Assembly: GCF_004027225.2 (NCBI RefSeq)
Contig: NC_044277.2
Span: 28,968,995 to 29,032,994 of the forward strand
DNA: 64,000 nucleotides
Source: Strigops habroptila
Lineage: Eukaryota; Chordata; Aves; Psittaciformes; Psittacidae
Direction of reading: 5' to 3'
The stretch's first letter is position 1. Each line of letters opens with the position of its first letter. The notes beneath the pieces are model-generated. The model worked only from the letters and a program-made list of their open reading frames with translations. It searched no databases and was not told where the DNA came from. This document shows positions 3,329 through 55,165 of this stretch, in pieces. The translations under genes and the position numbers were made by a program.

Positions 3329-4322
3329 AGCCCTACATAGTTGAAACAATAAACCCTGTAAAATTCATATGGCAAGAAGATCCACATTTCCAAGACAGCA
3401 GTTCTGAGGGTGATGATGAACTGGAGGCATCAGAAAGCAAAGGGACAAAGAAATGCAAATTATTTCTGTAGTTGTTGTCTATTTGGTTGTGGTAGGTTGA
3501 TGCTATGAGAATATTAATAGCAGCACCTGGGTCACGGGGAAACTAACATCTTCATTCCACATCTCTGGACAAGGGAAGTCATCTGCGAAAACCATTCCCT
3601 GCTGCACAGAATGTAGTAGTCAAAAATGCCAATACCACCCGTGATGTGAAATTGAGTATAAAAGCTGAGTTTCTAGCTCAGTGCAAGAGAACTCAGCTGG
3701 GTAGTGGGTTTGGCCCAAACTCAAATCATATGTGAAGTTTTCTAAAGAAACATTTTTTTATAGGAGGCTGTATTGGGTTACAGTGGAGTAATGTCCTTCA
3801 GCACATACGATTTCTCTGGAGCCTTACAGCCTTACAGCTTGAACTTGGGCTAATGGAATTTGATGGTAGCTCTTATGATGCTAAATTTCCTTTGTGTTTT
3901 TTCTAGGCTTTTCTCTTTACCACAGAGAGAAAGTGCTAGATCTTTCTTCTTCTCCAAAGAGGATGAACGCCTAAGAGGTATAACAGAACTTAGTCACCCT
4001 CTTTTTGACGATTTATCTAGACATTTTGGATCCTTTCAGATATACATCTGATACTTAATTTTTCCCTGTGTTTCTGGTGTTCTTGTTAAGAATATTGACT
4101 ACTCTTATCAGCCACATATGCCAACATATGGTTTTTGATCCTAAATGATAATGACTTTGTTTCTGTGTTGCTCATGAGAGTCACGAAGAGGAACACATTC
4201 AGAAGAATGTAACCATGTTAATTTTTTCTTTTTGTGCAGAGAGCCCTAAGTTATTTTGTAAATCAGTAGACCTCAGTGAAGAAAAAGATGGTTGGGAAGA
4301 CAGACGTAGATTATTGCTTGAG
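3329..4322 (+). CDS. NOL8: NOL8 C-terminal exons (partial gene or fragment)
   Basis: Three exons are read: 3329-3467, 3907-3977 and 4240-4322. Each acceptor is an AG after a pyrimidine-rich tract. The donors are gtagtt (weak), gtataa (weak) and gtgagt (strong). All junction phases agree and no stop interrupts the joined frame. The peptide contains W-Q-E-D-P-H-F-Q-D-S-S-S, then S-F-F-F-S-K-E-D-E-R-L, then P-K-L-F-C-K-S and W-E-D-R-R-R-L-L-L-E. This order matches my recollection of the C-terminal end of nucleolar protein 8, an RNA-binding factor in ribosome biogenesis. The expected last exon, a short basic lysine-rich tail, was not found before the CR1 at 4.4 kb or before the PHF7-like gene. 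Upstream exons were also not found. It could therefore be a partial duplicate or a truncated gene. The NOL8 name rests on memory of the family. Confidence 0.55.
3981..4078 (+). repeat. Source half A of duplicated block (copy at 8981)
   Basis: This block (acagaacttagtcaccctct and onward, to tgtgtttctgg) recurs at about 8981-9072 with a handful of differences. In the copy it is joined directly to sequence matching 5533 onward, skipping about 1.45 kb. Confidence 0.8.
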
Positions 4323-4395
4323 GTGAGTGTTTCAACATCCGTTATTTGGTAACTGGAGCCCTGAGGAGGACTTGGGGTGTTGGCTAAAAGCTCAA

Positions 4396-5036
4396 CATGA
4401 CCCGGCAGTGTGCGCTCGCAGCCCAGAAACCAACCATGTCCTGGGCTGCATGCGAAGGAACGTGGCCAACAGGTCGAGGGAGGGGATTCTTCCCCTCTAA
4501 CTGCGCTCTGGTGAGACCCCCCACTACAGTCCTGCGTCCAGCTCTGGAGTCCTCTGTCCAGGAAAGACATGGACCTTTTGTTGGAGAGGGCCCAGAGGAG
4601 GGGCACAGGAAAAATCAGAGGGATGGAACACCTCTTCTATGAGGAAAGGCTGAGAGAGTTAGGGCTCTTCAACCTGGAGAAGACAAGACTCTGGGGAGAC
4701 CTTCTTGTGGCCTTTCAGTTCTTAAAAGGGGCCTATAAGAAAGATGGGGAGACACTTTTTAGCAGGGCCTGTTGCGATAGCATGAGGGGTAATGCTTTCA
4801 AACTAAAAGAGGGAAGATTGAGGCTGGATGTGAGGAAGAAATTCTTTACAATGAGGGTGGTAAAATCCTGGCACAGGCTGCCCAGAGAGACAGTAGGTGC
4901 CCCATCCTGGAGACATTCAAGACCAGGCAGGATGTGGTTCTAGGCAACCTGATCTAGTTGAAGATGTCCCTGCGCATTGCAGGGGACTGGAATAGATGAC
5001 CTTTGAAGGTTCACCCAAACTATTCTGTGGCGCCTT
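4396..5036 (+). mobile_element. CR1 LINE 3' fragment, sense
   Basis: The stretch has the familiar 3' text of avian CR1: ggcacaggaaaaatcagagg, then the aggctgagagagttagggct block, then cacaggctgcccagagagac, then gactggaatagatgacctt. It ends with the CR1 terminal octamer ATTCTGTG at 5022-5029. Open frames here (4397-4642 and 4569-4943) are remnants of element sequence, not host genes. It is 5'-truncated, as is usual for CR1. It sits directly downstream of the last NOL8-like exon. Confidence 0.85.
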
Positions 5037-5109
5037 TTCTCCTACTCTGGTTGTGCCCAAGACACTATCTGGTGTTTGTCCTGGTGTCGCAGGTGAATTA
5101 TTCAGGGAA

Positions 5110-5185
5110 GTCATCCTTGGCAGGTTAATTAAAAGGGCTTTCTTCATGATGAAGAGATGATCAAATGGTAAGGAATCAATGACTG
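5110..5185 (+). repeat. Local duplicate of about 3224-3300
   Basis: Matches the 3224-3300 block (catccttggcaggttaatta and onward) with small differences. Confidence 0.6.
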
Positions 5186-5238
5186 AATGAAAATCAGAGG
5201 GTAAGCAAATGGTGATTAAGCAACCATGGAATGGTAAG

Positions 5239-5330
5239 TAGAATCACAGAATCAATTAGGTTGGAGGAGACCCTACAGGTCATCAAGTCCACCCATTAAC
5301 CTAACACTGCCAAGTCCACCACAAAACCTT
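5239..5330 (-). mobile_element. CR1 LINE 3' end, antisense
   Basis: The text aatcacagaatcaattaggt tggaggagaccc, followed by catcaagtccaccc, is the reverse complement of the typical CR1 3' end. It is a short fragment. Confidence 0.75.
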
Positions 5331-5532
5331 GTCCCTAAGCTGAGCCTTGACTCTGCACTTGCTGCAGGAGCAGCCACCCCGGTGATGTGGATGCCGAGGC
5401 CTCGGGACCCTGCCTGGGCGCTTCACAGCCACCCCTGTGAGGCGGTGGCTGTGCCACAGAGGGTGGCGGGTGGCCGAGGATGCCATGCCTGCACTGGGGG
5501 TACACACGGGCAATGGTGCCGATGTCCCAATG

Positions 5533-5817
5533 GCCACTGTGACCCGTCGGGTCAGGCCTACAGAAAGGAGCGCTGGGCACAGTGTGTCACTGCAACCTGG
5601 TGAGGTGCGGAGTGGAGAGGGCAGGGCAGGGACAGGGCTCTCAGGGGGCTGCCGAGGGAGGAGGGGGGCCCCACACCGCAGGGCTCCGGGTCTTTCCTGC
5701 AAGCTCAGCCGTGACTCGCTTCTCCCTCAGAGGTAGCAGAGGAGCATCTGGAGGAGGCGCCCCAGCACTGCTGGGACAGGGACTCTCCAAACGCCCACCG
5801 TTGACGTGTGCTGTGTC
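5533..5817 (+). repeat. Source half B of duplicated block; probable 5' UTR region of the PHF7-like gene
   Basis: This GC-rich block recurs almost exactly at about 9073-9358. It contains a donor-like CCTG|gtgagg and an acceptor-like ctccctcag|AGG, so it may include non-coding 5' exons of the gene beginning at 5846. The copy ends where the two diverge, just before the exon that carries the start codon. Confidence 0.75.
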
Positions 5818-5845
5818 CACACAGAAGTGTAAGACGCCTGACTCG

Positions 5846-6953
5846 ATGGAGCAGGGTGAGAGCAAAGTCCCCCTCCCACAGGCTGGCAGAAGGGCTCCCA
5901 GGGCGGTCAGCGTGGGGCTGGGAGCGTTGGCAGGAGGAGGCAGGAGCTCCTCACTCGTGCTGGGGCAGGGCCCCTCCTGTCCTCGGCAACAGGGGCCCAG
6001 GTTGGGCAGCGGGCAGCAGGCACCTGCCAGGACACTCGTGCCTGCAATGCCCTTTGCTCTCCAAGGCGTCCAGCCCTGCCCAGCAGCCAGCTAGGCATGG
6101 ACAGAGCAGCCCTTGGACATGCCCCTGGCCCCGCAGAGGTGCTCATTCCCGGTGGCATTTGCTCTCTCCCCTCCAGCATGCGTGCTGTGTCGCCGGGCAC
6201 ACGCAGACCCAAACATCTGCGGGCCCAAACTGAGGAACGGAGGGATCTGTGCCCATCGCTTTTGCCTAGTGAGTTTCTGTGGGGCTGGCTGCAGCTTTCT
6301 GACAGGCAGGCCCTGCCGCATACTCCTCATCGGCTCCTCTCTTTTCTGTAGTGTTTCGCCAATGGGAAACAACAGCAAGAGACTGCAGATGAGTTTCATC
6401 TTAAGGATATTAGCTGCGTGATCAAGCGGGCGGCGTACAAGGTGAGCACCTGAGACGATCAGGGAGATTAGTGCCAGGAGAGCTTGGCCGGAGCTTAGCC
6501 CAGATGCCAAGAACAAAATCCCAGCCCTTCCAACCAGCCCTGGGACAAAAGTCTTGCTCCCAGCAGCTCCACAGAGGCTCCAGCACAGGAGCCTGCTCTG
6601 CGAGGCGGATCTGTGGCCTGTGACCCAGCAGAGGCCACATCTTGCCCCCTGCCCCGAGGCGTGGGGCTGGCTGTGGAGGCCCTGAGGCTGCTGCTGATGG
6701 CGGCTGCTCTGCTCTTTCCAGGACTGCTTCATCTGTGGCGAGAGCGGGGCCACCATCACCTGCTGGCAGAAGGGCTGCAAACGCAGATTCCATCTCCCCT
6801 GTGCTGTGGAGGGTAGATGCATCACCCAGTTCTTTGAGCACTACAGGTAAGGGCAGGCAGGCCCCGTGCGTGAGGCTACTTGCTTTCAGTACCCTTCCTG
6901 CCTGGGCCAGCCAAAGAAGAAAGAAACCTGCAGTGACTCTTCCCAGTGGCTGA

Positions 6954-6990
<37 letters not shown>

Positions 6991-8330
6991 CAGGAAGGGG
7001 CTGGGGCTCCTTAACACGTCCTGCGCCCTCCTTGCCCCCACCGGGGAAGGACCCAGCGCTTTGCACGTCACCCATCTTGTTCCATTTTCCCCAGGTCCTT
7101 CTGCTGGGAGCACCGCCCACAGCAGGCAGTGGTGGTGGCTCCAGAGAACACTGCCTGCCTCATCTGCCTGGAGCTTGTGGAGGGCAGAACAAGCTACAGG
7201 ACCCTGGTGTGCCCAGCATGCAAACACGCCTGGTTCCACAGGGCCTGTGTCCAGAATTATGCCCTCCATGCGGGTTTCGTCTGCTTCTCGTGCCCGCACT
7301 GTCAAAATCAATATCAATTCCTGACAGAAATGCGCACCATGGGGATCCGAATCCCCAGGAGGTTGGTTTCTTCCCAGCACAAAAGGCAGGAGGGTCCCAG
7401 TGCTGTGCACAGTCATGGCCCTCCACTGTCCCCTGAGTCTCAGCTTCAGCTTCACAGAGGTGTTGGAAACGGGGTGGTGGGGATGAATGTGGAAGCCCTG
7501 CATCTGCCTTATGCCGGGGCAGCAGGGCCTCATCAATTTTCCCTTTCCTCACCAAAAGAGGACCATCATGGACAGAAGACGGTGGCTACGCACAATTACG
7601 CAAGAGGCACAGCCGCTGTGATGCCAGGCAGTGCCTTTGTCCAGGAGGCAGGGAGGAGGCAGAGCAAGAGGGGTAAGTTGACAAAGCTGCACCCCAGGGC
7701 TCAGCACAGGATCTCTGTCTCGCCAAGGGCTAGAAGCAGAAGGGCTGAGAACAAGAGCTCTGCTGGAAGATCCCGTGCTGTGGGCACTTTGTCCTCAGAG
7801 CCATGATCCCCTTTCCTTCCCCAGGCCCTGGCAATTGCTGCTGTGCTGCTCCTGCGCTGCTGAGGGCACCCACAAACGCTGCTCCTCCCTGAAGCACAGC
7901 ACAACTAGCTGGGAGTGTGACACCTGTGCTGGCGCAGGCACCTGTAAGTGTCAAAGCACCCGTGTGCTCCTGGGCTGGGGCCAGGGGCCGGGCCAGGCCA
8001 TGGGTGCCCGGTGTGGGCTTGCCAGAGCCTCGCTGCTCCAGGAGGGCTGGGGCACCTCTCTGGCCCATCCCTCCCCAGGCCTGGGGGAGCGTACCCTTGA
8101 CCTTCCTGCTTCCTCTTGCAGCCTCTGGTGCCAGCTCGGCGCTTGCAAAGAGGGGCCCCCCAGCCAGGCAGTGCCGGGGCTGTCTCACTTCTCCCCAGCA
8201 CCTGGGACCAGCAGCCCCAGCACTGGCAGCCAGGCACCACTGGGACCAAGCCACGCTTCCCCCGTGCAAGAGGGCAGCAGCCGCTCCAGCCCCCCAGGAC
8301 CTGACCGACGGCAAAACCAAACCCGATTGA
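5846..8330 (+). CDS. PHF7-like PHD/RING-type zinc-finger protein, 8 coding exons
   Basis: Coding exons are 5846-5855, 6177-6268, 6352-6441, 6722-6846, 7095-7361, 7559-7672, 7825-7943 and 8122-8330, with GT/AG boundaries throughout. They total 1026 nt, or 341 codons plus TGA, with no internal stop. Residues about 4-112 are an extended PHD (C-V-L-C-R-R-A-H-A-D-P-N-I-C-G, then C-A-H-R-F-C-L, then C-F-I-C-G, then F-H-L-P-C-A and F-C-W-E-H-R). Residues 127-176 are a second Cys/His finger (C-L-I-C to C-P-H-C). A third Cys cluster (L-L-L-C-C-S-C, W-E-C-D-T-C) lies near 236-270. This order is that of PHF7/G2E3. Mammalian PHF7 is a testis-biased histone reader with ubiquitin-ligase activity. The 3' tail is proline/alanine-rich and divergent. 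The start is the first ATG in frame, but an upstream 5' exon could extend the protein. This is one of a gene type that I recall as multicopy in birds, and the nearby duplication of its 5' end fits that. Confidence 0.8.
6955..6993 (+). repeat. Hexanucleotide microsatellite (AGAGCC)n in an intron
   Basis: About six copies of agagcc in the intron between the fourth and fifth coding exons of the PHF7-like gene. Confidence 0.9.
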
Positions 8331-8523
8331 GCCGTCAAACCCAAACTCCCTACGCGCGGCCTAGAAGAGAGCAGGAGAGGACCAAGAGCACCATCACCAA
8401 GCACTGAGTGGAGCTCCCGCTTGCAACATCAGGCCCAGACTCCCAACACACGGCCTGGACACCTCCGCGCGACCAGCCATGCTCCATCCCCGAGTGACAG
8501 CTCTGATGCCTGCCCGCCGGCAC

Positions 8524-8529
8524 AATAAA
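8524..8529 (+). terminator. Polyadenylation signal AATAAA of the PHF7-like gene
   Basis: The AATAAA lies 194 bases after the stop codon, in the same orientation and followed by a T/G-rich stretch (gtgtccttcatctctgg). This is the expected 3' UTR length and position. Confidence 0.7.
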
Positions 8530-8980
8530 GGTGTCCTTCATCTCTGGACTGAGAGATCGCAGGCTCGTTTGTTGGCTTCCTCCTCCTCCTCTCCCTTTCT
8601 CAAGGGGCAGCATCAGGGGCTGAGCCCAGAGCATTGTCCTCTCCCTGGGGGTTGGCAGCCCCTTCCCCAGACCTCCCTCCTGCACCCACCCAGCCAGCCT
8701 GGCCCTCGCAGCTCGCCCCGCAAAGTCACGCACCCCGGTCCCAGTGACTTCTGACATGCTCCAGTTCTGCTCCCCTCTGGGCAAGGCCCTTCAGGCAAAC
8801 CACAGGGGGTCGTACAGGTGCTGTGCGCATGAAGTGCCTTCCTGATCGGTCTTAATACAGCTTTAAAGCTGATTCATTGCGGTAAGGAGCAGCATCCTCT
8901 CTGAGGAAGGTAGGGGAACCTGGGAGACAGCTGATGGGCTTTTCTGCCCACAAAGAGACAGCGAGGAAGGACAGGCAAAC

Positions 8981-9358
8981 AGAACTTAGTCACCCTCTTT
9001 TTGACGAGTTATCTAGACATTTTGGATCCTTTCAGACATATATCTGATACTCAATATTCCCTGTGTTTCTGGCCACTGTGACCCACGGGGTCAGGCCTAC
9101 AAAAAGGAGCACTGGGCACAGTGTGTCACTGCGACCCGGTGAGGTGCGGAGTGGAGAGGGCAGGGCAGGGACAGGGCTCTCAGGGGGCTGCCGAGGGAGG
9201 AGGGGGGCCCCACACCGCAGGGCTCCGGGTCTTTCCTGCAAGCTCAGCCGTGACTCTCTTCTCCCTCAGAGGTAGCAGAGGAGCATTTGGAGGAGGCGCC
9301 CCAGCGCTGCTGGGACAGGGACTCTCCAAACGCCCACCGTTGACGTGTGCTGTGTCCA
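8981..9358 (+). repeat. Rearranged copy of 3981-4078 joined to 5533-5817
   Basis: The first about 92 bases match the intron after the second NOL8-like exon. The remainder matches the 5' region of the PHF7-like gene. About 1.45 kb present in the source (4079-5532, including both CR1 fragments and the third NOL8-like exon) is absent. Either the duplication preceded the CR1 insertion, or the copy was later deleted. Confidence 0.8.
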
Positions 9359-9594
9359 TGTTTGTGGTCTCTCGCTGGGGGTCAGCAGCTCTTAACAGGA
9401 GTGGAGCAACTCCTGTCCTAAAATATGTGTCCATATTTGCAGCTTCACAGCCTTCTTCATTCAGCAATTAACCAGCAGATTTTTGCTGTTGATATAACAA
9501 AGGGCTTTTGTGCTCTTTGGATTTAGGTAAACAATCAGATAATTTGAAGAAGCACTGTAGGTGGAAATAGTATGTTTTTCCCACTGCACTGTGA

Positions 9595-9690
9595 ACAATA
9601 ATAATAATAGTAATAGTAATAATAAGAAGAACAACAACAACATTAATTTTTCTGGTACTTTTTTTTTTCTTTTTTTTTTTTGTTTTCTTT
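9595..9690 (+). repeat. AAT/AAC microsatellite followed by T-rich tract
   Basis: Imperfect (aat)n with (aac)n at 9595-9643, then poly-T runs at 9659-9681. A minus-strand open frame rich in leucine here is only translation of this repeat. Confidence 0.85.
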
Positions 9691-10693
9691 AATATGCTTA
9701 AATGAATGTTCCTTAGATAATTAGGCTCTCAGGCTACTTAAATTTGGATCACTCCAGTGGCTACTTCAGCTGTTTGGAAGCAACACACAGCAGCTTCACA
9801 CAGAGAGTGAAATAATATCAGCTTTGCTTTCCCCCAGGAAACAGAGAAAGATGTTCTCCACTCAAAACTAGTGTAATTTATCATTTCCTGTACACTAAAA
9901 GGCTGCAAGGTTCAACATAAAGGTAAAGGTGAAACACTAAAACAAATCTGGAAGACATTAGGTTATATGAAATAGAAATTTGTGCTGCAAGGGACATGAA
10001 GAACAGAAATTTTTTTATTGGTTCCTTGTCAGTATTTAAAAACAGAGTGATAGCAATGGTGTACTGGTACTGCCTGGAAGGATCAAAGGGAGAAGTTTCT
10101 GTAAACAAAGGTAAAAATTTATAGTTTTAATCATTCCAGCTTCCATAAGAAAAACTTGAAAATATTTTCAATCAATATCCATCAATATTTGGATGGAAGA
10201 TGTCTAAAGAAACCCAAGTGACTTTGGCTGAATGTAATTGGCTATTTTCTGTTCACAGAGTATTCATATTTCCTCAAATTTATGTGACAAGGACTTTGTG
10301 CTGAACTGTTGAAATTTGAGTGATTAAGATTTGGTTGTAATTCATCCAATTTTTCCTAAGGTATTCCCTGGCTGGATGACTAGGTATGAATGCAAATTTT
10401 CAATTACATACATGCTTGTCTCAACAGCTTGGAAATACACTATCCAAATCTTTCTGCCAGCCAGATAGATATATCTGGGGCTTTTAACAAAGTTTTACAG
10501 GAAGAAAACATGCAAGTAGGCTTAAATGTATAAATGGCTTAAAAACAGGATTAGAAAAAAATCATTAATAGGTTTATGAGGCACTGTTGAGTACAGTGCC
10601 TCCACTTGACCTCAGCTTACTAAACCCCTGATTTCTGGAATGAGGGAGTACACAAGCAGGATCCCTCAATATTTGTGGCTTCCTTATATTTCA
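9691..10693. other. No gene recognised
   Basis: AT-rich sequence without a recognisable exon or repeat family. Confidence 0.4.
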
Positions 10694-26028: not shown

Positions 26029-26743
26029 TGTTAGCCGAGAGAAGAACACATAACCACTCTAAGGAGGTTATATGTGGTGCTTTATTCCGAGGCCCCGGGA
26101 ACCAGGGGTACCCACCCAAATCTGGTTCCGAAGACCGTTACAACGTGCTCACAATTTATCCTGTAAAGTATTACATATGCATCACCTTTCCCACTATGCT
26201 GATACATATTCATGACCTATCCCCGCTTCGTATTATAATGAGTACAAAAGTCATTTCCATATGTTCTGCGCTTGCGCAGTGCCTCCTGGTGGTCGTGGGC
26301 AGGGGTCTCAAGATGAAGTAAGTAGTCTTCCTCAGATGAAGTAAGACGTCTTCCTCGCTGTGTACTTTTCACCTTTTGAGTCCTGGATAGGTTCCAACGA
26401 TGATGCTTTCACCAGCATTCTTCTTATCTCTTTCTGACTGGTACTGGTATGCATCTTCGTTTCTTATCTTAAAGGTTCTGCTTTGAAGTAACCTGGGGAG
26501 TACTGCTTCGCCTGGGGAGTACTGCTTCGCTTGGATAGTCTCATATATTTATCTCCACGTCCTAGTTACCAAACTTTCCAGTAGCCTTGAGTGCAGACAC
26601 CCAGCTCGGCCAAGGTCTGTCTTTGCTGTCAGGACTTTTTATGCGGTACTAAAAAAACTCAGCAAGTTTCAAACTGTTAGCAACAGGCTTAACGGAACAT
26701 AAATCAAGCAACTCACAAGTCTAATTACTCTATATATCTAACA
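26029..26743 (-). mobile_element. 3' LTR of the provirus
   Basis: TG...CA ends and 715 bp long, identical to the other LTR. Read on the minus strand, AATAAA is at 26,086-26,081, which places R/U5 at the low-coordinate end. U3 has two short tandem duplications: a 19-bp unit at 26,492-26,529 (exact) and a 23-bp unit at 26,311-26,356 (two mismatches). The second includes a GACGTC CRE-like core in one copy. These are enhancer-like in position. No strong TATA was seen; TATAATA near 26,236 is a candidate. Confidence 0.95.
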
Positions 26744-26755
26744 TTTCCCCCCTTT
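26744..26755 (-). promoter_or_regulatory. Polypurine tract
   Basis: On the minus strand it reads AAAGGGGGGAAA and abuts the TG of the 3' LTR, the correct position for priming of plus-strand DNA synthesis. Confidence 0.9.
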
Positions 26756-26785
26756 GAAAATACTTCATCTTTTGCAAGTATTTTC
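26756..26785 (-). other. Perfect 10-bp inverted repeat between env stop and purine tract
   Basis: GAAAATACTT and AAGTATTTTC are separated by 10 bases. They lie two bases beyond the env stop codon and end at the purine tract. The RNA could fold into a 10-bp stem. In some simple retroviruses an RNA export element sits in this interval; a role here is only a guess. Confidence 0.6.
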
Positions 26786-26787
26786 AC

Positions 26788-28827
26788 TCATGTAGTAGTT
26801 TCCTGATAGGTAAGAGGAGGAGTTATTGGGTGTCGTGGATATTCTCGTGTCACTGCTCCAATGATTTTATGTGTCCAACTGGTATTCCGGGTTATTTCTC
26901 TTCGAATGCAAAAATATACCAAATAGATTACGAGGAACACAAGCAATAGGGTACACACTGTCTCTATGAGGGAATGAATCCACCCAGTAAGGTGAATTCC
27001 CAATCCATCAAATAATGCTCCTACCCAATTTTGACTTATTTCTTCCTTTTCCTTGTCAGCCTCCTCTTCAATTTTCCCTAATTGAGCAATGTCATATTCT
27101 ATATCTGCAGTTACGTTTGGTATATGTACACAGCAGTGATCGATTCTATCTTTGAGATATCCACAAACACCATGTTCCTTTAACAGCAATGTGTCTAATG
27201 CCATTCTGTTTTGCAGAGTCATTTTGGTTGTTGCCTGTAATTGCAAATTTAGATCCCTAAAGCCTTTTTTAGTCACCTTGGCCAATCTCTCAGTTTGTCC
27301 AATTAAATTATAAATCGCTTCCCTATTGCGATATGCAGCTATTTGAGCAAAAAGGGATTCAAGTGCCCATCCTACTTTCACTCCTGTCTCAGGCTCTTGC
27401 CAAGTGTCATCTATATTGTCTATATCATCGTCAATACTTCTTTTGGTTCGAATCTGCAAAGTTTCTAGTTTGCCCCTGAATGGGGAACGTTTCCAGATTG
27501 GACATAAAGTGGGGAGTCCTAAGGTAATTTCCCGCACTGGCCCTGTTATTGGAAGGTGAGTGGTCCAGGTACCATCACTGAGTGCCCAAACAAGATGTCC
27601 CATGCTGTGTATCATCAAATGTCTGCAGTTTATTCCATCAGCCGGGGCTTGTATCGGTTTTCCTCCAACTTTAAATCCTCGGCATGCACATCCTACCTTT
27701 AAAGCAATTCTAATTGGGGGCATTGCAATCTTTTCTGGATCAGTATCACAATCCATTATTCTGGTGCAATTCCACCAAGGAACATTTTTAACAGTATCTA
27801 GACTGACTCTGTCTAATGACAACAGGTTCGTATTTCCTGCTATATTATATTTCCCTGACCATCTGAGACACCAAGATGTGTTTCCACCATACCGAAATTT
27901 TTGTACAATACTCAGTGACCAAATTGTATCCCAATTTTGTTCCAAATTGTCCTTTGTTTGACAGTTCCAGGTTATTTCTTTTGTCTGTGTTTTTACTTCA
28001 ATTTTTTCATCATATAAACATTCACCTACTCCTGGTCCTTTCTGTGTGAATTGAAAGTTTAATTGCTGTTCACACCATGATTTTAATATAGGGCCCATGA
28101 GTCCCTTTCTGTCATATTCTGTTTTTGTTACGTTTTTTATCACCTCTATCTCCTGACACTTAACTGTCTTGTCTTCTTCTGGGAGTGGTATTGTTATTAT
28201 TCCCCACTCAATCGGTTCTCCAGCTGCTTTTGGTATTGGGAGGCATGCCGTTATTCTGCTTGTATTTTGCATTTTTGCAAAATCTTTGATTAATCCTATC
28301 ATTAGATTTTCTTCCGGATCACGCTGGGGTACCTGAATTATCTGGGGTGATTCGGCCGGTTTTATAGCTCGTCTGATTCTAGTTTTAGTAATGTATATTA
28401 TCTTCTCACCGTAGTCTATACTATTGTTTGTCTTGACCAGACAACGATATTTTCCCCGCATTTGTTCAGTCAGATTGGCTATCCTTAATTTAGTCTCTCC
28501 TTCAGTAAGATTTCGCGACCAGAGCCTGTTCATTACTTTACTTCTAGATTGCCAATTTTCCTGCAACTCCTGTTCATGCCCTACTAATCCTTTGTCCTTG
28601 CTGTCGAAAATTATCTCAGGTACTTCAAAACTTTCCGATTCCTTTTCCCAGATAACCCTTATTAGTTCTCCTCCCATTGGCACGGTAAACCTGCAAGACA
28701 GAGTGGCATTTTGTCCAACAATATACGTCACCACCTCCCTTTTTAATGAAACTTCTAAGGAACCAACAATTATTATAGGTAAGACTAACCAAATCACAAT
28801 TACAGTGCTATACATATAACACGACAT
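26788..28827 (-). CDS. env: Env glycoprotein with an N-terminal Ig V-like domain, intact
   Basis: This is an unbroken 679-codon frame. Residues 1-23 are a signal peptide. Residues about 24-148 form an Ig V-like domain: Cys45, Trp60, then L-R-I-A-N-L-T and Y-R-C at 127-129, the usual disulfide and tyrosine-corner pattern, resembling B7/butyrophilin V domains. R-I-R-R at 150-153 is a furin-type site. The surface subunit follows, with glycosylation sequons but no CXXC. R-T-K-R at 460-463 is the surface/transmembrane cleavage site. The transmembrane subunit has the L-Q-N-R immunosuppressive-type region at 538 onward, then C555 and C565-C566 (nine residues between, where six is usual), a membrane span at about 618-641 and a tail of about 38 residues. 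The ATG lies one base after the pol stop. Env normally mediates receptor binding and fusion at the cell surface. The Ig domain is an addition that I do not know from this family. Confidence 0.9.
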   Translation of the reverse strand: MSCYMYSTVIVIWLVLPIIIVGSLEVSLKREVVTYIVGQNATLSCRFTVPMGGELIRVIWEKESESFEVPEIIFDSKDKGLVGHEQELQENWQSRSKVMNRLWSRNLTEGETKLRIANLTEQMRGKYRCLVKTNNSIDYGEKIIYITKTRIRRAIKPAESPQIIQVPQRDPEENLMIGLIKDFAKMQNTSRITACLPIPKAAGEPIEWGIITIPLPEEDKTVKCQEIEVIKNVTKTEYDRKGLMGPILKSWCEQQLNFQFTQKGPGVGECLYDEKIEVKTQTKEITWNCQTKDNLEQNWDTIWSLSIVQKFRYGGNTSWCLRWSGKYNIAGNTNLLSLDRVSLDTVKNVPWWNCTRIMDCDTDPEKIAMPPIRIALKVGCACRGFKVGGKPIQAPADGINCRHLMIHSMGHLVWALSDGTWTTHLPITGPVREITLGLPTLCPIWKRSPFRGKLETLQIRTKRSIDDDIDNIDDTWQEPETGVKVGWALESLFAQIAAYRNREAIYNLIGQTERLAKVTKKGFRDLNLQLQATTKMTLQNRMALDTLLLKEHGVCGYLKDRIDHCCVHIPNVTADIEYDIAQLGKIEEEADKEKEEISQNWVGALFDGLGIHLTGWIHSLIETVCTLLLVFLVIYLVYFCIRREITRNTSWTHKIIGAVTREYPRHPITPPLTYQETTT

Positions 28828-28828
28828 C

Positions 28829-31800
28829 TTATCTGCATTTCAGTCTCAGCTTCGTAGGTCCTAAGGCTTCTGATTCCCAATGTTTCGGGACTTTCTTCAC
28901 TCTAGTGTAGTGAATCCAGGAGTTAATTCCTTCCACTTTTACAGCGGTGAAGGTAGTTAACAGCACCAGGTACGGTCCATTCCACCGTTCCTTAAGTGGT
29001 TCCTCGCTCCAATCACAAACGTAGACTTGGTCTCCTGGCTCGATCTCGTGTACTGGAGTCTCCAACGAGAGCGGTCGGTTCCAGATCAGGGCACTACGCA
29101 ACCGGATCAAAGTTCTACTGAGAGATAACACGTAATTATGTACATCCTGAGTTCCTTTGATATGTACATGTGGGTTTGGCTGGGGAGCCTCATATGGCTT
29201 TCCAAACAGGATCTCATATGGGCTTACCATCATTCCACTTCTAGGTTTAATTCTGATCCTTAAAAGGGCTATTGGTAATGCCTGTGGCCATTTTATTTTA
29301 GCCTCCTGGCATATTTTGCTTATCTGTCTTTTAATTGTTTGATTCATCTTTTCCACCTGTCCACTGGACTGTGGCCTCCATGGGGTATGAAGATTCCAGG
29401 ATATTCCTAACAGTTTACTGACTTCCTGAACTATAGTTGATGTAAAATGCGGTCCTCTATCTGATGATATACCCAACGGGACTCCGAATCTAGGGATGAT
29501 CTCTTTCAACAACCATTTCACTGTTTCCTTAGCCTGATTGGTGCGACAGGGAGAGGCTTCTGGCCATCCAGAAAAAGTGTCAACCCCTACTAACAAGTAT
29601 CGATATCCCTGTATCTTGGGTAATTCCACAAAATCAATTTGCCAATAGTCACCCGGCTCTATACCTACTCTGATATTTCCCATTTCTACTTTCCTTTTGA
29701 CTACTGGATTGTTTTCCAAACAAATTTCGCATTTAGATCCTATGGATTTTGCCATTGTTAACATCTGTGTAGAGATCATTCCTCATTTTAAATATGTTAC
29801 CAATGCTTCTGCCCCCCAATGACATTTTTGATGTTCAATTTGTAGAATCGTTCGCATGATAGCAGGTGGTACCACCACTTGTCCAGTAGTGGTTACGTAC
29901 CATCCTTCCGAGTTCAATCGAGCCTTTACTAATTCAGCCAATTTAACATCTTCTTCTGAATATCTTGGTTTTTGGTTCATATAATTCTGTAATGGGCTTA
30001 CCTTCGTTGGTATCAGAGCCATAACTGTCTGTACCTGTCGTGCAATTCGTCTAGCCATCCGATCCGCAAATGTATTTCCTTCGGCTATCTTAGAACTTCC
30101 TCCTTGATGCGCTTTACAGTGCATGATAGCCACCTGTTCTGGTAATTGCACAGCAGTTATTAAATTCAGAACTTCCCTTTAGTATTTTATATTTGTCCCT
30201 TGTGAGGACAGGAGCCCTCGTTCCTTCCATAGAGCTCCATGTATATGGACCACACCGAATGCATATTTCGAATCAGTCCATATATTTACCCGCTTTCCTT
30301 TGCTCAGTTCTAAAGCTCTGGTGAGAGCTATTATCTCTGCCCGTTGTGCTGAAGTCCCTGGGGGCAAAGCTTTTGCTTCTATTAGGGCGTTTTGTGTAGT
30401 TACTGCATACCCAGCATAACGGACCCCACCTTCCACAAAACTGCTTCCATCAGTAAAAAGTTCCTGATCAGGTTGCTCAAGTGGGGCATCCTTCAAATCG
30501 GCCCTCGTCGCATATGTATATTCAATCGTCTCCACATAATCGTGTTCTAATATGCCGTCCTCTGTGTTTGTACCTAGAAAAGCTGCTGAATTCAACAAGT
30601 TAGTCGTCTTTAGAGTCACATCATCTTGTTCAGTTAATACTGCCTGGTATTTCATCATCCGACTTGGGGATAGCCAGTACCCCCCTTTTTGTTCTAAGAC
30701 AGTCATTACCATGTGTGGCACATATACATCAATATGTTTTCCTAAGGTCAATTTTCTTACTTCTTGTATTAATGTCACTGTTGCTGCTACTGCTCGTAGG
30801 CACGATGGCCATCCAGCACTTACCGGATCCAGCTGTTTGGAGAAGTATCCCACTGGTCGCTTCCAGCTTCCCAGTCTCTGCGTCAGAACTCCCAATGCCA
30901 ATCTCTGTCTCTCATGCACAAACAGCTGGAAGTCCTTGGTTAAATCCGGTAATCCCAGGGCGGGTGCTTTTATTAACGCTTCTTTTAGCTTCTTAAAAGC
31001 TTCCTTTTGGGACCCTTCCCAAATGAAGGTCTGAGATTTCTGTGCCTCATATAAAGGTTTAGCTATCAGTCCATAGTCCGATATTCATAACCTGCACCAA
31101 CCCGCCATTCCAAGGAATGTTCTCAGTTCATGTAAATTCCGAGGCTCTGGAATAGCACAAATTGCCTTTATACGATCAATTCCCAACCTCCGTTGTCCCT
31201 GGGAGATTTCACAGCCCAAATACATTACAGTAGTGCAGGCAATCTGGGATTTCTCCCTCGAAACCTTATACCCATTTAGTCCCAATTGATTCAGGATCTC
31301 TATTGTTACTCGTACACACAGTGATTCTTGTTCAGTTGCAATGAATATATCATCTACATATTGCAATAAGAGATATTGTGTTCTTGGTACCTGAATTTTC
31401 CTTTGAGTTACCCAGAGTTCCAATTCTTTCGCCAGCTGATTTCCAAAAAGCGTCGGGCTATTCTTGAATCCTTGTGGGAGTCTCGTCCAGGTTAACTGAG
31501 TCTTACGTCCATTGTGCGGGTTTTCCCATTCAAAGGCAAAGAGTTTCCTACTACCTTTGTCAAGGGGGATGCAGAAGAAAGCATCTTTTAAATCAATTAC
31601 TGTGAACCATTTATATTTCTCCTTTACAGATGTCAACAATGTATATGGATTAGCCACTACCGGATAGATATCCTTTGTTATTTCATTTATTGCCCTTAGG
31701 TCCTGTACTAACCTGTATTCACCATTCGGTTTCTTTACTGGAAAAATTGGTGTGTTATATTCTGATTCACATTCTTCTAAAATTCCAAACTTTAAAAATT

Positions 31801-32359
31801 TCTCAATTGTTTTAACTATCCCATATCGTGCCTCCAATTTTATGGGATATTGTTTTATCCGTACCTGTCTTGCCCCTTCTTTCAATTCCACTACTACCGG
31901 CTGAGCCATCTTTGATTTTCCCAGAATTTCTGTCTCCCAAACTGTGGGAATCACTGCTTCCTCTACTTCCCTAGGTATTCGGGCATTTGGACTGTTCTTT
32001 AACACTAGTATCTGTCCGGATTGTGATTCCGGTACCTGCATAATCAATTCCCCATTTTCAAAAATAATTTTAGCGTTTAATTTTGATAATAAATCTCGTC
32101 CCAACAGGGAAACAGGACAGTCCGGCATGTATAGAAACTCACGTATCAATTCCTTTCCCCCAAACCGTAATTCCAGGGGTCGCATGAATGGCCGCACCTC
32201 CTCTCTCCCTGTGGCCCCTATTACGGTGGTAGTCTTATCCCCTATTTTCCCATACAGGTCATTTAACACAGAATAAGTTGCACCAGTATCGACTAAAAAT
32301 TGTACTTCCTCTCCCCCCAGCCTTATTTTCACTAGTGGTTCACCCTTTTCCGATTCTAG
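28829..32359 (-). pseudogene. pol: pro-pol: protease, RT, RNase H, integrase, with three in-frame stops
   Basis: One reading frame runs the whole length with no frameshift, but it is cut by TGA at 31,087-31,085 (RT thumb/connection), TAA at 30,181-30,179 (inside RNase H) and TGA at 29,785-29,783 (integrase zinc-binding region). Domains in order are protease with L-V-D-T-G-A-T, RT with L-P-Q-G-F-K-N-S-P and Y-V-D-D, RNase H with T-D-G-S-S and T-D-S-K-Y-A, and integrase with the zinc-binding HHCC pair and D, D, E residues in the contexts Q-I-D-F, S-S-D-R-G and G-Q-V-E-K. The motifs are clearly gammaretrovirus-like. The protease frame opens right at the gag TAG but one base out of phase with gag. 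As it stands the element cannot make full-length Pol. Confidence 0.9.
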
Positions 32360-32980
32360 TCAGCTCTGACTCCCATATTCTCCCAGAACCATGGCTTTTG
32401 CCACCTCGGATTCCCGAAGGAGTATCCAGATTGCGGGTTCTGTCTCAGTCTCTGAGGGCATTAATTTTTCCAATGCCCCTCCTGTTTACAATAGGCACAT
32501 TGATTAATGCCTAATCTGCCTGATCCTGACCTTGGATTATTAAATGTTCCAAATCCTCTTCCTCGCCCACGCATTATTCCTCTACCTCTTCCCCTATTAC
32601 CTGGGGTACCTTGTCCTCTGCCTTGTATTATAGCCAATAAATTTCGCTGCTGCCTCTGAGCACCGTCTTTTTCTCGGTTATTATACACTTTCCAAGCTGT
32701 TTCCAGCAGCTTAGCTAAATCACGTAACTCAGCACCCTCTAATTTCTGCAATTTCTTCCTGATATCATCCTGAGATTGCCCTAGGAAAATTAGAGCCAGC
32801 TGAGCCTTAGCCTGTTCCGTTTCTACATCCAGATCCGTATATTTCCTGGCCACTTCTTTAAGTTGCTCCAAAAACACGGACGGAGATTCTGTCCTTTCCT
32901 GTCTGACATTATATAACTTTGACCAATTTATTGTTCTTGCCATAAGCCCCAGTGGATTGTTTCCAAAGCACCAAATCTCC
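32356..32980 (-). pseudogene. gag: gag 3' part: capsid C-terminal domain and nucleocapsid, with stop
   Basis: The frame carries the capsid major homology region (S-P-S-V-F-L-E-Q-L-K-E-V-A-R-K-Y-T), then an Arg/Gly-rich stretch and a single zinc knuckle C-A-Y-C....G-H. A TAA at 32,463-32,461 falls just before the knuckle's last cysteine. The frame then runs on to a TAG at 32,358-32,356, at the pro boundary where gammaretroviruses read through a UAG. Here pro lies in the -1 frame, and there is no obvious slippery heptamer, so a one-base loss is more likely than programmed shifting. Confidence 0.85.
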
Positions 32981-33275
32981 CGGAGAAAAAGGAACTTTAA
33001 CATACACAGGTCCCTCTGTACCTACTCCCTGATGGAGCGGCGCCAATAACACACTAGACGTTTGAATTCTTGCCTCTTTACCCTGCATATCTTGCTGTCG
33101 GGTCCGATGTGAAACCGGGGTGAAGGGACATTCCCGTTCTTTTCTACATTCACATCCTTTATTTACTTCTAGGTTCTCATCATCACTGTCATCCCTTACT
33201 TTCCTGCTTCTTAAAGCAGGTGGGGTTGACGGGGCTGGTGGGGCTATCAACAAATCAGAATCATCATCATCTTTC
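32909..33275 (-). pseudogene. gag: gag middle part: acidic/proline-rich linker and start of capsid
   Basis: This frame differs from those on either side. It carries D-D-D-D-S-D, a proline-rich stretch, then V-P-F-S-P-G-D-L-V-L-W-K, which resembles the first residues of gammaretroviral capsid. It ends in TAA at 32,911-32,909. Most of the capsid N-terminal domain, which should lie between this point and the homology region, is missing. An internal deletion of a few hundred bases that also changed frame is the simplest reading. Confidence 0.75.
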
Positions 33276-33955
33276 TGAAATGTTGAACTTGCCCACCTCG
33301 GCGCTGCTCATCCTGCCGCTGCCGCTCTTTTGTCCTTGGCGGCGGGGCTCGCCGCGCCTGCGGAGGTGGGAGGCGACGTCAGTTGCCGCAGCCGGCGCCG
33401 CGCCGCGGACACGTCACGTGGCCCAGGCGCGCGGGGCGGGGGGGCGCGCGCGGACAAAGGTGGGACCCGCGGCGGGGTGGGGGGGGGCGCAGTGTGTGTG
33501 GGACGGGGCACGGGACGTGAGCGCTGCCGCTGCCACGGCCTGCTCCGAACGCCGCGGACACGGCGGAGCTACCGGCACCGCCGCGCCCTCCCGACACCCC
33601 CCCCACCCCCGATAGCGGGGCGCAGACTGATGCAACACCGGCGGGCGACTGTCACACCGCCGGACGGCGCCTCCCGCGCCGGGGCCGCCTCTGTGTTTAC
33701 CTCCCCTCTTCCTCACCGGCGACACCGGGCATCCCCGGCGCTTTCAATGGGAAAATGCAAACCGGTCGCGGGACATCACCGCGCCGCAGCCGCTCGGGGT
33801 TTTTCCATCCCGGCGGCGTGTCCCTGGGCGCACCCGCCACCGCGTGTCCCGGCGGAGCACGGTGGGACTGGGCGGCAAGGTGGGGGCTTCCGCCGGTAAA
33901 GGCTGCGCCCTGGAAGTCGCCCCGTTCTTCCTGCCGCGCCGTACCTTCTCCACAA
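33276..33955 (-). other. SLC38A2: Captured host DNA: 5' end of SLC38A2 (exon 1, intron 1, start of exon 2)
   Basis: This GC- and CpG-rich block is unlike the AT-rich provirus around it. On the minus strand it has a donor G-G-G-A-G|GTAAAC (intron starts at 33,700), an acceptor CCTCCGCAG (ends at 33,358), then 46 bases of leader and an ATG at 33,311-33,309. The ATG opens M-S-S-A-E-V-G-K-F-N-I-S, after which the sequence changes back to gag. This peptide matches, as I recall it, the start of avian SNAT2, the sodium-coupled neutral amino-acid transporter encoded by SLC38A2. Intron 1 contains TGATGCAAC (plus strand 33,628-33,636) next to a purine-rich G tract. SLC38A2 intron 1 is known for an amino-acid response element of this type. 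The break within exon 2 is not at a splice site. Edges are approximate; the MA-side edge lies near the first GC-rich bases at about 33,955. Confidence 0.75.
33628..33636 (+). promoter_or_regulatory. C/EBP-ATF (amino-acid response) element core TGATGCAAC
   Basis: Fits the consensus TGATGNAAN bound by ATF4-C/EBP dimers. It sits in the captured SLC38A2 intron beside a G-rich purine tract, the arrangement described for the SLC38A2 nutrient-sensing unit. Activity in the provirus is inference. Confidence 0.5.
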
Positions 33956-34350
33956 GGTCCGGAAAGCAAAACATTATTCACAGCCATGCATCCCATACAT
34001 TTCTTCTCACCCACACAGCCTTTACATTGGTCACTCGATTTTGCACTAACAACCATTATTCCACACGCCTTTCTCCATTCATCATTGTCTCTTAACATAA
34101 AGAACAGTTCCACATATGGGACCTCGTCCCATTTTCCTTCCCGTTTGCAAAATAACATTAATTGCATAATCGTATCATAGTCTAAAGTTCCATTCTCCGG
34201 CCAACGGACTTGATCCTCTAATTCATATTGCATCCACCACACATTACAGTAATCAATCAATTTCCCTTTTTGCATCTCTTGTCCAAACCGTCCCTCCTTC
34301 CAACGACTCAAAATACACCCTAACGGCGACGACTTTGGTATTGATGACAT
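33956..34350 (-). pseudogene. gag: gag 5' part: matrix domain, running on into host sequence
   Basis: The ATG is at 34,350-34,348. The first about 130 residues form a gammaretrovirus-like matrix domain (P-L-G-C-I-L-S-R-W-K, W-P-E-N-G-T-L-D-Y, F-C-K-R-E-G-K-W, V-P-Y-V-E-L-F-F). Residue 2 is Ser rather than the Gly needed for N-myristoylation. The frame does not stop at the host junction but continues through the captured 5' segment as about 85 non-viral residues to a TAA at 33,699-33,697, which overlaps the host intron's donor. The product would be a 217-residue matrix-host fusion of unknown use. Confidence 0.8.
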
Positions 34351-34400
34351 TCCAAGCTTATTTCAATACAGGCTAATACAGACAAATTCAATTTCAAAAT

Positions 34401-34690
34401 ATGAAAGTATACCAAATACTTTACCAGACCATGAAAGTATACCAAATACTTTACCAGACCACTGTTTGCCTGAACCTGCAGGCTTTATACCAAATAGTTT
34501 ACCAGACCAGACCACTGTTGCCCTGCAACAATATACCGAATAATTTACCAGACCAGACCACTGTTGCCGAACCTGCAGGGCTTTCGCCACTGTCTGACGG
34601 ACGGCGCCTAGGCTTCCCTTGGAGCTCCGTAGCCCAACCACGCACAGCTTTCGCCGTGTCTAACAGGCAGGCTTTTACCAGACCAGGAAA
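34401..34690 (-). repeat. Tandem repeats in the proviral leader
   Basis: A 30-bp unit (34,401-34,430) is repeated exactly at 34,431-34,460. Related units with ttaccagacc recur near 34,499, 34,547 and 34,677. Two copies of a cctgcagg-bearing block alternate with them. On the minus strand each unit shows CTG|GTAAA, a splice-donor-like motif, so the leader has about five possible donors. The packaging signal is expected in this interval. Confidence 0.8.
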
Positions 34691-34846
34691 TGGTACCAAT
34701 ACCAAATAATAAAGCACCGTCTCTTACCAATGCCGTTGGTCCGTCGAGAGCACCGGAGGTCGGTCGCGGTCGATGGCTCCCCGAGAATCACTCGGTGCCG
34801 GCTGGAGCTGGATCGATGCGCGAGCCGCCTCAGCAATGCCCGCGAG

Positions 34847-34864
34847 GTCCCATCTGGGTCGCCA
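34847..34864 (-). promoter_or_regulatory. Primer-binding site
   Basis: TGGCGACCCAGATGGGAC begins four bases inside the 5' LTR boundary, where a tRNA 3' end (CCA) should pair. I could not assign the tRNA with certainty. It is not the tRNA-Pro site usual in gammaretroviruses; an arginine tRNA is a possibility. Confidence 0.65.
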
Positions 34865-34868
34865 AAAC

Positions 34869-35583
34869 TGTTAGCCGAGAGAAGAACACATAACCACTCT
34901 AAGGAGGTTATATGTGGTGCTTTATTCCGAGGCCCCGGGAACCAGGGGTACCCACCCAAATCTGGTTCCGAAGACCGTTACAACGTGCTCACAATTTATC
35001 CTGTAAAGTATTACATATGCATCACCTTTCCCACTATGCTGATACATATTCATGACCTATCCCCGCTTCGTATTATAATGAGTACAAAAGTCATTTCCAT
35101 ATGTTCTGCGCTTGCGCAGTGCCTCCTGGTGGTCGTGGGCAGGGGTCTCAAGATGAAGTAAGTAGTCTTCCTCAGATGAAGTAAGACGTCTTCCTCGCTG
35201 TGTACTTTTCACCTTTTGAGTCCTGGATAGGTTCCAACGATGATGCTTTCACCAGCATTCTTCTTATCTCTTTCTGACTGGTACTGGTATGCATCTTCGT
35301 TTCTTATCTTAAAGGTTCTGCTTTGAAGTAACCTGGGGAGTACTGCTTCGCCTGGGGAGTACTGCTTCGCTTGGATAGTCTCATATATTTATCTCCACGT
35401 CCTAGTTACCAAACTTTCCAGTAGCCTTGAGTGCAGACACCCAGCTCGGCCAAGGTCTGTCTTTGCTGTCAGGACTTTTTATGCGGTACTAAAAAAACTC
35501 AGCAAGTTTCAAACTGTTAGCAACAGGCTTAACGGAACATAAATCAAGCAACTCACAAGTCTAATTACTCTATATATCTAACA
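34869..35583 (-). mobile_element. 5' LTR of the provirus
   Basis: Same sequence as the 3' LTR over all 715 bases. On the minus strand AATAAA is at 34,926-34,921. The U3 duplications lie at 35,332-35,369 and 35,151-35,196. It should drive genomic RNA towards lower coordinates. Confidence 0.95.
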
Positions 35584-52079: not shown

Positions 52080-54259
52080 TCACTCTTGTGGAGTGCAGAA
52101 TTAATCATGTCTAAGAGTGCTTGATTTTCACTAGCCTTTTTGAAGTTCATCTTTGCCTCTTGCCTGCCCAGTTCCTTTCCCTCCATCTCTCTGCCTTTAC
52201 AGACACACTCCTCCTCCATTTTGATTCCATGGATGATCGTTCCCCTTTTGTCAAGAGATCACAGGCTGCCTCCCTTCCTTCATTCTGCACGTCTCCCCTT
52301 TCCTTCCTGATATTTGCCTGTGTGCTGAATAGGGCTGCAAAAATGAAAAAAAAAAAAAAAGAAAAGAAAAAAGAAAGGTTAGTTAATGAGCAAACCCCAC
52401 TTCCCTAGATGTGAAAGAGAAATGTATAATAATTGTTTTCTTCCTAAACAGAGAGGAAGATAAATTAAACCAAATGGTATTTGGAGCTGGAGGGCAAAGG
52501 GGAGAGAGGAGGTGGGAGAGAAGAAAAGAAGAGGCAAAGGAGAGCTGCTCCTGTGCTTTGGAGCTGTCTTTGGCTTTGCTTACATTTCAACATGAGTGTA
52601 GGTTAAGATGAGAATATAGATTGTTATGGTAATACCCTTTTTATTCCATACGTAGCAACCCTTGTTCAAAAGCAGGTATATGGTTTTGATTTGGCTTACA
52701 CTTTTTGGAAGCTTTTTCAACTGATAAAATCCAAATAAACTAAATATCCAGAGGACTAGGAATGTCTACAGTAGGTTTAAAGAGATGGAAAGTTCCTGTG
52801 GGTTTCGGTGTACTGGCATGCTTTTTGCATCCCTTGTGAAGACTTGAAAACTGCATTTTGTTGATGACATCAAACTCTGCCAAAAGATACAGCTGAAGGG
52901 GAGTAGAACATTGGTTCCCAGTCTTTTGGGACCTACACATTACTTGTAGCCTCCAAAATTTCCTACAAATCACAATGAGATTTCTTACTTTAAACTGAAA
53001 ACACTAGGAAGGCACCAAACAGATATGATGGCCTACCACAGCTTTATAGGACATCTATGATCCTTGAGTGGTGCTGGGGAGCCACTGGTCTGGAATAAGG
53101 GAGGATGGATGTAAAGATTAAGGACTCCATATGTGCAAACCTTCATTGACTGCAACAAGAAGAAACCAACACAATTGGAGGGGAAGGAGTTAAAGTCTTT
53201 CAGGTAGTTGAGTTCATTGTAGAGTCACCATGTGGGACATGGATGTAGATGTTGGGGGTTCCACAAAGCCTGCTTGTTGCTAGTGGAAGGATTGGATGGG
53301 AACGCTCTGCAAGAAGGACAGGTAAAGGAAATCAGAGAACAAAGTCTGGGAAAAACATCATTAGGATGGCTACAATGTGCCAGTACAGAGGCTTGTTAGG
53401 AAGCAAGAAGAAAAGCAACACCAGCTTGGTAAAATAACAACCATCAGCTGGATATCAGAAGAGCTGGCAGCTACATAGTAAAATAATATGCATTTTGTTG
53501 CAGGGACCATGTGGACAAACTGAGATGGGCTGGAGTCTGCTAGACTTGGACTGTGTTGCCCCATGAGGACAGAAGTTGTTGGACAAAGAGTTTAAAGGCG
53601 GCACAGAAGGAAAAATAAAAAAGCAAAAAAAAAAAAAAAAAAAGAAAACAGAGGAACCCAACAGCTGGCAATGCTGAAAGACGATACGAAGAAAGGATCA
53701 GCTCTGAGGATTCATTGGGCGGATGTGTGTGGAGCCAATAAACTGAGCCAAAGATTAGGTGAAGATGTAAATGCTGATGGCACTGCTGTATATGGATTAC
53801 TAAAAACTCCAAACAAAGAAACCTCTAACACTTCCCTGCATAGGTAAACCCTTGCTTGGTAAACATCAAATGCAGATTCAGACTCAAATCTTGAGCCAGC
53901 CACGCATGTGACACCAGCGCTACTGCAGAATGGAATACGGGGTTTGAACTTGTTCTCAGGAAGTAAGAAACTTACTGGGTGTTAGGTCAGTCCTTACATC
54001 TGGGTGGAAACTTATAGTAATTGTGCAATTTCCCTAAATAATCCCCCGAGATCTAAGTTAGGCATTTTACCTTTGCAGCCTTTCCTGCCTTTGCTCTTAC
54101 AGTGCTTTTCATTCGAAGCCCTTGCACTTCCCTACACCATGTAAAATATGATTACTTCTTTCACTTAAAGACCTCGGTACAACATTAAAATCCCTCCAAT
54201 AACTATGGGGAGGTCCCTTTTGTCGTAATACCTGTCTTCATTAGTCACGGTCGCTTAAA
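52080..54259. other. No gene recognised; purine-rich and A-rich tracts
   Basis: A/G-rich runs at 52,342-52,378 and 53,613-53,650. No supported exon. Confidence 0.4.
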
Positions 54260-54269
54260 GGGGGAAAAT

Positions 54270-55165
54270 GAAACAGGACGCTTGGATCCATCCCTTTTTC
54301 CTCCTTTCCCACGCTGCCCACCGGAGCACCCTCCAGCCGAGCAGCGGGGCCGCCCGTGTGCAGCACCGGGGGGCGGTGGCCTCACCGAGCCGCGGCAGCC
54401 GCGGGCACGTCCGTGTGTCCGTCCCCTCCCTCCACCAGCCCCGCGGAGCGAGGCGATGCGGTGTCAGCGCCGCCCGCGCAGCCTCCGCAGAGGCGCGCTG
54501 CGGTGCGCGGGGGGGGCGCGCAGGGGCTGGCGGGCCCGCGCTGCCCGCGCTGCCGCATCGTTCACCTCCCGGCGCCGGGCGCGGGGACATGCGCACTGCC
54601 GCGCGCCTGCCCGCGCAGCGTTCCGCGGCCGCGCGCCTCCCCCCGACCCTCCTGCCGGGCGGAGGGGAGGGATCGCGGGGAGGAGGAGGGAGAGGAGAGC
54701 AGAGGAGGGAAGAGGAGAGGAGACGCGCCGCAACTTGCTGCTGCTCCTCCCTCCCTCCGTCCCCTCCTTCCCTCCCTGCGCCCGTGCCCGGCCCCTGCGG
54801 GCTGCGCTCCGCGGGCAGCGCTCCGCGGGAGGCGGCATCCCCGGGCGCGCCCCTCCGCGGGGCTCGCGCTTCTCGGTGAGTTTGGGGGCGGTGCGAGAAG
54901 TTGCCGTGCCTGTGTTTGGGGGTTAGAGGGTGAAAATGTGTGTGTGTGTTTATTGGGGGGGTGCTGTCGCTGCGGGCGCGGGTCGCTGCGCGGCTGCGGG
55001 AGGCCGGTGGCGGGGCCGCCGCAGGGCTGCAGGGCTGCTCTGTCTGGCCGCGGTCCGTGCTGCGGGTTATGTGATGACTGGGGGAGTCATTCGGAGCGGT
55101 CACAGGTGCGGGGCAGGGTCGTGTGCGGCATCCCCCGGCGATGGGATCCCCCGCGGGTAAGCCCC
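54270..55165 (+). promoter_or_regulatory. CpG island with probable first exon and splice donor
   Basis: Very GC-rich, dense in CpG and in GC-box-like GGGCGG and CCGCCC motifs, in an otherwise AT-rich region. On the plus strand CTTCTCG|GTGAGTTTGG at 54,876 is a near-consensus donor, so a non-coding or short coding first exon probably ends at 54,875, with a long intron beyond. Long open frames on both strands (up to 294 codons) reflect scarcity of stop codons in GC-rich DNA. I cannot tell which gene this promoter serves. Confidence 0.65.

Follow-up and report, generated by a model that had tools for sequence, protein, structure and literature searches.

The subject of this report is a retroviral envelope protein (Env) that carries an immunoglobulin (Ig) domain ahead of its own surface subunit (SU). 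It is encoded in a 64,000-nt window, the whole stretch of DNA analysed, from Strigops habroptila (contig NC_044277.2 of assembly GCF_004027225.2, positions 28,968,995 to 29,032,994 of the forward strand), which contains a single minus-strand provirus at 26029-35583. The env frame (26788-28827, minus strand, as are all features given below) encodes 679 aa without an internal stop. Residues 24-146 (28390-28758) were confirmed by sequence comparison as a V-type Ig domain, which lies between a hydrophobic N-terminus, read as the presumed signal peptide (residues 1-23, 28759-28827), and an SU that is of full length relative to homologous SUs of Ig-less relatives in the same genome (residues 154-463, 27439-28368). 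Both SU and the transmembrane subunit (TM, residues 464-679, 26791-27438) are kept in one open frame alongside the Ig domain.

The canonical Ig residues Cys45, Trp60 and Y127-x-C129 are present in the window V domain, and among 10 copies compared the second canonical Cys was lost in L019. The domain passed the Pfam model PF00047 (ig) and matched PDB chains of Ig-superfamily proteins, while the V domains of the related copies L020 (32.8) and L019 (28.9) passed the Pfam V-set model at its cutoff of 26. Four N-glycosylation sequons are found in the window domain. An Ig V-like domain between signal peptide and SU had been proposed in an initial annotation of this DNA and was borne out by the Ig models, the PDB chains and the canonical Cys, Trp and Y-x-C. 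That annotation overlooked the furin-type motif at the end of the range it assigned and the second Ig domain present elsewhere.

A search of the same genome found the V domain in 22 places on 9 contigs, in frame in many copies. Open frames of at least 683 aa occur in 8 of these places (L001-L006, L020 and L021), and L001-L004 do not differ from the window in the part that was searched; L002 is in fact the window copy. In three places (L017, L018 and L019) an extra 285 nt, in frame, lies between the V domain and the residues TKTR, at a point corresponding to 28390-28392 in the window, where it is absent (DNA alignment of 7 copies). These 285 nt encode a second Ig domain of the C2/I-set type, 94-95 residues long and directly behind V. 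Taken alone, the second domain of L019 scored above the cutoffs of Ig_3 (41.2 bits), Ig_2 (34.8 bits), ig (30.9 bits) and I-set (30.8 bits).

The two long terminal repeats (LTRs) of the window provirus are 715 nt each (3' LTR, 26029-26743; 5' LTR, 34869-35583) and show 0 mismatches over 715 positions, and on this basis the provirus is young. The LTR pair of L020 differs in 1 of 705 positions and that of L019 in 0 of 363, a part of the LTR. Between branches the LTRs have diverged, with a similarity to the window LTR of 92% over 478 nt for L020 and of 74% over 576 columns for L019. Since the pairs are near-identical and the branches distinct, recent insertion of three distinct branches is indicated. 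An assembly artefact was ruled out by the 22 places, the 9 contigs and the matching LTR pairs. Contig C25 (37.4 Mb) holds 14 of the 22 Ig-bearing env places (L004-L007, L009-L013, L015 and L019-L022) and may be the W chromosome, which in birds is described as a refuge for full-length endogenous retroviruses (PMC8310711). Four copies (L007, L008, L010 and L014) have in common a break within SU, after which the sequence is out of frame, and this env-damaged form seems to have multiplied.

A search of the same genome with the window SU piece gave 91 matching pieces, and 20 further Env stretches were taken and searched with profiles of the V and second Ig domains. No match better than E 0.68 (V) or 2.8 (second Ig) was obtained in these 20 loci. 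In L061, L062, L063 and L067 the signal peptide leads directly into an SU homologous to the window from about residue 173, and in L054-L060 and L065 a leader of about 45-50 residues comes before SU, with R-N-K-R preceding SU in 7 of the 8. This leader, clearest in L065, L054 and L057, contains a single Cys between signal peptide and R-N-K-R. In L068 and L069, two close relatives also among the 20 (94-95% in SU), the match starts only at SU position 158. Types were assigned to the loci named here, the remainder of the 20 being left unsorted. Because Ig-less relatives in the same genome keep SU after a signal peptide or a short leader, the Ig part is, by this comparison, an added module and not the ordinary receptor-binding domain (RBD), in agreement with the initial annotation. 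The leader was also considered as a remnant of the Ig domain, which found no support: the best of six leader-domain comparisons was reached by 99 of 2000 shuffles, and the other five by 632-1123.

Directly after the Ig part an R-x-[K/R]-R motif of the furin type is present in 21 of the 22 copies, spelled RIRR, RVRR or RVKR, and it was lost in L010. The window precursor has two such sites, RIRR at residues 150-153 (28369-28380) between Ig domain and SU and R-T-K-R at residues 460-463 (27439-27450) as the predicted SU/TM site read in the Env frame, and cleavage may yield three products, Ig, SU and TM. The TM matched Pfam TLV_coat at residues 524-646 with 30.2 bits (cutoff 22.5), and its PDB matches were retroviral TM and filovirus GP2. 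A Pfam search of two SU pieces, one of them window 27388-28353, matched no family, a PDB search with an Ig-less SU gave only two haemoglobin matches (E 1.8-1.9), and a whole-Env scan of viral contigs gave 9 pattern matches, none of them related. CXXC was absent from both SUs scored, the window piece and that of L063, and the window TM has C-x9-CC instead of CX6CC. The TM pattern was found in 9 loci and is C-x9-CC in 8 of them and C-x7-CC in L064; outside the close family C-x9-CC occurs in 6 of the 7 loci that showed the pattern. As the window SU is without CXXC and the TM has C-x9-CC, this Env, judged by these motifs, is gamma-like in TM yet not a canonical gamma-type Env. A Ser/Pro/His-rich stretch, with about 20 residues more than the window SU, lies about 65-95 residues past the SU start in L005, L006, L013 and L020-L022 and by its sequence is a second variable region of Env.

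The initial annotation had also held that the domain is kept, and the ratio of nonsynonymous to synonymous substitution rates (dN/dS) across copies agrees with constraint. From pooled Nei-Gojobori pairs, which are non-independent, dN/dS was 0.41 for V (bootstrap 0.28-0.60, with none of 1000 bootstraps reaching 1) and 0.11 for the first 60 SU codons (0.05-0.22). These values are based on 8 of the 20 copies in which V is complete; L014 and L022 were left out as partial. A 12-copy set gave 0.46 and 0.13, respectively. The V domain is under purifying selection, yet faster-evolving than the start of SU. L015 and the window copy agree to 99% both in the integrase end and at the start of SU, but to 90% in V; on this evidence the V region has been exchanged between lineages, most simply by recombination.

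The reading that we prefer, tentatively and as one that falls a little short of probable, is that a captured Ig module stands in frame before a furin-type site, is cut free or loosely held, and serves as a ligand for a host partner. A class I-like retrovirus would have taken up the ectodomain (V, probably together with C2) of an Ig-superfamily surface molecule of its host, and this ectodomain would be set in frame between the signal peptide and a complete SU-TM fusion machine, ahead of a furin-type site. During passage through the secretory pathway, cuts at two sites would separate Ig module, SU and TM, of which SU and TM would perform entry as they do where the Ig part is missing. Whether shed or only loosely attached to the spike, the Ig module would bind a cell-surface partner of the host, such as an Ig-superfamily receptor or adhesion molecule, and this binding would most likely dampen or misdirect immune contact. 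An accessory ligand module is the best fit because the relatives have a complete fusion machine but no Ig part, the cutting motif is conserved, and the domain is constrained yet fast and exchangeable. As to the class of the partner, the V-C2 order and the CAR-like scores point to adhesion molecules and the butyrophilin and PD-L1 scores to immune ligands. That a recently active lineage would carry a captured V-C2 ectodomain as a third Env subunit, released by furin, exchanged as a cassette and acting as ligand or decoy, is a possibility entertained with still more reserve.

Several observations weigh against the ligand reading. Cleavage, secretion and binding of the Ig module, and with them its shedding, partner and purpose, are predictions. 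The window V domain itself is below the cutoffs of V-set (24.1, against 26) and Ig_3, and its structure model is of low confidence (pLDDT 45.8) although the best fold matches were mostly Ig. In all three two-Ig copies the Ig part either contains a stop or lacks a canonical Cys. A donor gene was not found in the same genome: at E ≤ 0.001 every match to the V domain was an Env copy, and of 62 matches to the second domain up to E 10 the three Env copies were 88-100% identical, the next best match 28%, and none beyond these copies above 41%. The 28% match lies within a cluster of Ig exons on contig C5 that looks like titin. Host capture of the Ig domains is what we infer, and of the earlier proposal that a B7/butyrophilin exon was captured, the part that stands is that an Ig domain was kept and constrained. 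A donor from that family does not follow, because three copies have a C2/I-set second domain and the best solved relative varies by copy, being butyrophilin-2A1 for the window V, CAR for that of L020 and nectin-4 for the V part of L019. Overall the closest solved relatives of the V domain are CAR, butyrophilin-2A1, nectin-4 and PD-L1, all with low scores and no single family for all copies.

In the main rival reading the Ig part remains attached to the Env trimer, where it would act as a second receptor-binding domain, bind a cell adhesion molecule and change the range of cells to which the virus attaches. The V domains of CAR, JAM and nectins bind cell adhesion molecules, and the matches of L020 and L019 to CAR and nectin-4 favour this rival, as do the V-then-C2 order, which is that of CAR and JAM, and the V domain being the fastest-evolving and exchangeable one among the parts compared. 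With a furin-type motif kept between Ig and SU in nearly all copies, and SU complete without the Ig part in the relatives, we consider attachment rather unlikely. The Ig part might instead merely cover SU as a shield or be carried as a passenger without a partner, which would suit its four sequons, the spread of both one- and two-Ig forms and a constraint weaker than that on SU; a V dN/dS clearly below 1 and the conserved cutting motif make this improbable.

It would also be conceivable that the domain is an ordinary gammaretroviral RBD with an Ig-like core topology, and a further point against the ligand reading is that the core of such an RBD, for example that of EnvP(b)1, an N-terminal beta-sandwich like the domain seen here, is likened to the V-type Ig fold in PMC7683403. 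The domain here is unlike it in being Ig by sequence, with matches to Ig models and Ig-superfamily chains and no retroviral RBD among the matches listed, and in its absence from the Ig-less relatives, whose SU continues all the same. With the C2/I-set domain in tandem behind V in three copies, this main alternative for the fold was rejected as very improbable. No retroviral Env was named among the 50 fold matches listed in each of three fold searches, many of the BFVD matches being nameless, a result that rules nothing out. Equally remote is that env is now a host gene with the Ig part serving the host: the env frame of the window copy is intact and its gag and pol are found only as separate open pieces, but identical or near-identical LTRs and many copies point to recent mobilisation and not to a long-kept single gene.

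Endogenous retroviruses capture host genes, and DNA viruses use Ig domains. Ig-like proteins of adenovirus, herpesvirus and poxvirus, among the best 50 BFVD matches listed, match the low-confidence model by fold only. According to PMC4299795, CrocERV31 captured nectin3, a member of the Ig superfamily that has three Ig-like domains and here takes the place of env, while CrocERV29 captured KIT-ligand as a separate frame between pol and env. These elements resemble the present case in carrying a host-derived gene under purifying selection; they differ in that nectin3 replaces env and KIT-ligand stands apart from it, whereas the Ig part of the present element is built into an env frame in which SU and TM are retained. 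The gamma-type Env, as outlined in PMC9967133, shares with the window Env a signal peptide, SU, furin-type site and a TM with a heptad region matching retroviral TM, whereas the window Env is without CXXC in SU, has C-x9-CC for CX6CC and carries the N-terminal Ig module. Searches of open-licence PubMed Central papers turned up, among the papers listed, none that describes an Ig domain within a retroviral Env; this is not proof of absence from print and accords with the initial annotation, to which the architecture was not known as described. A retroviral Env with its fusion machinery fully retained and one or two Ig domains placed before its own cutting motif would, if true, be a new Env architecture. 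It would allow a direct test of whether host-derived immune or adhesion ligands are displayed or released by retroviruses, and of the extent to which the SU N-terminus is modular, and young one-Ig and two-Ig copies beside Ig-less relatives in one genome provide natural comparisons.

The window provirus is flanked by CCAT, a 4-bp direct repeat read from the flanks. Its remaining open pieces are a Gag piece at 32461-33003 (Pfam Gag_p30), a pol piece with protease and reverse transcriptase at 31085-32332 (RVP, RVT_1) and a pol piece with integrase at 28829-29779 (rve, MLVIN_C). The Gag_p30, RVP, RVT_1, integrase core with MLVIN_C and TLV_coat matches place it near class I (gamma-like) retroviruses. 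The minus strand beside the 5' LTR (window 34833-34868) reads GTTT followed by TGGCGACCCAGATGGGAC at its start, a presumed primer binding site. A tRNA scan of the window found no tRNA. Stretches rich in G+C are located at about 4001-10000 (53-60%) and 54001-56000 (56%) of the window, with overlapping open frames on both strands.
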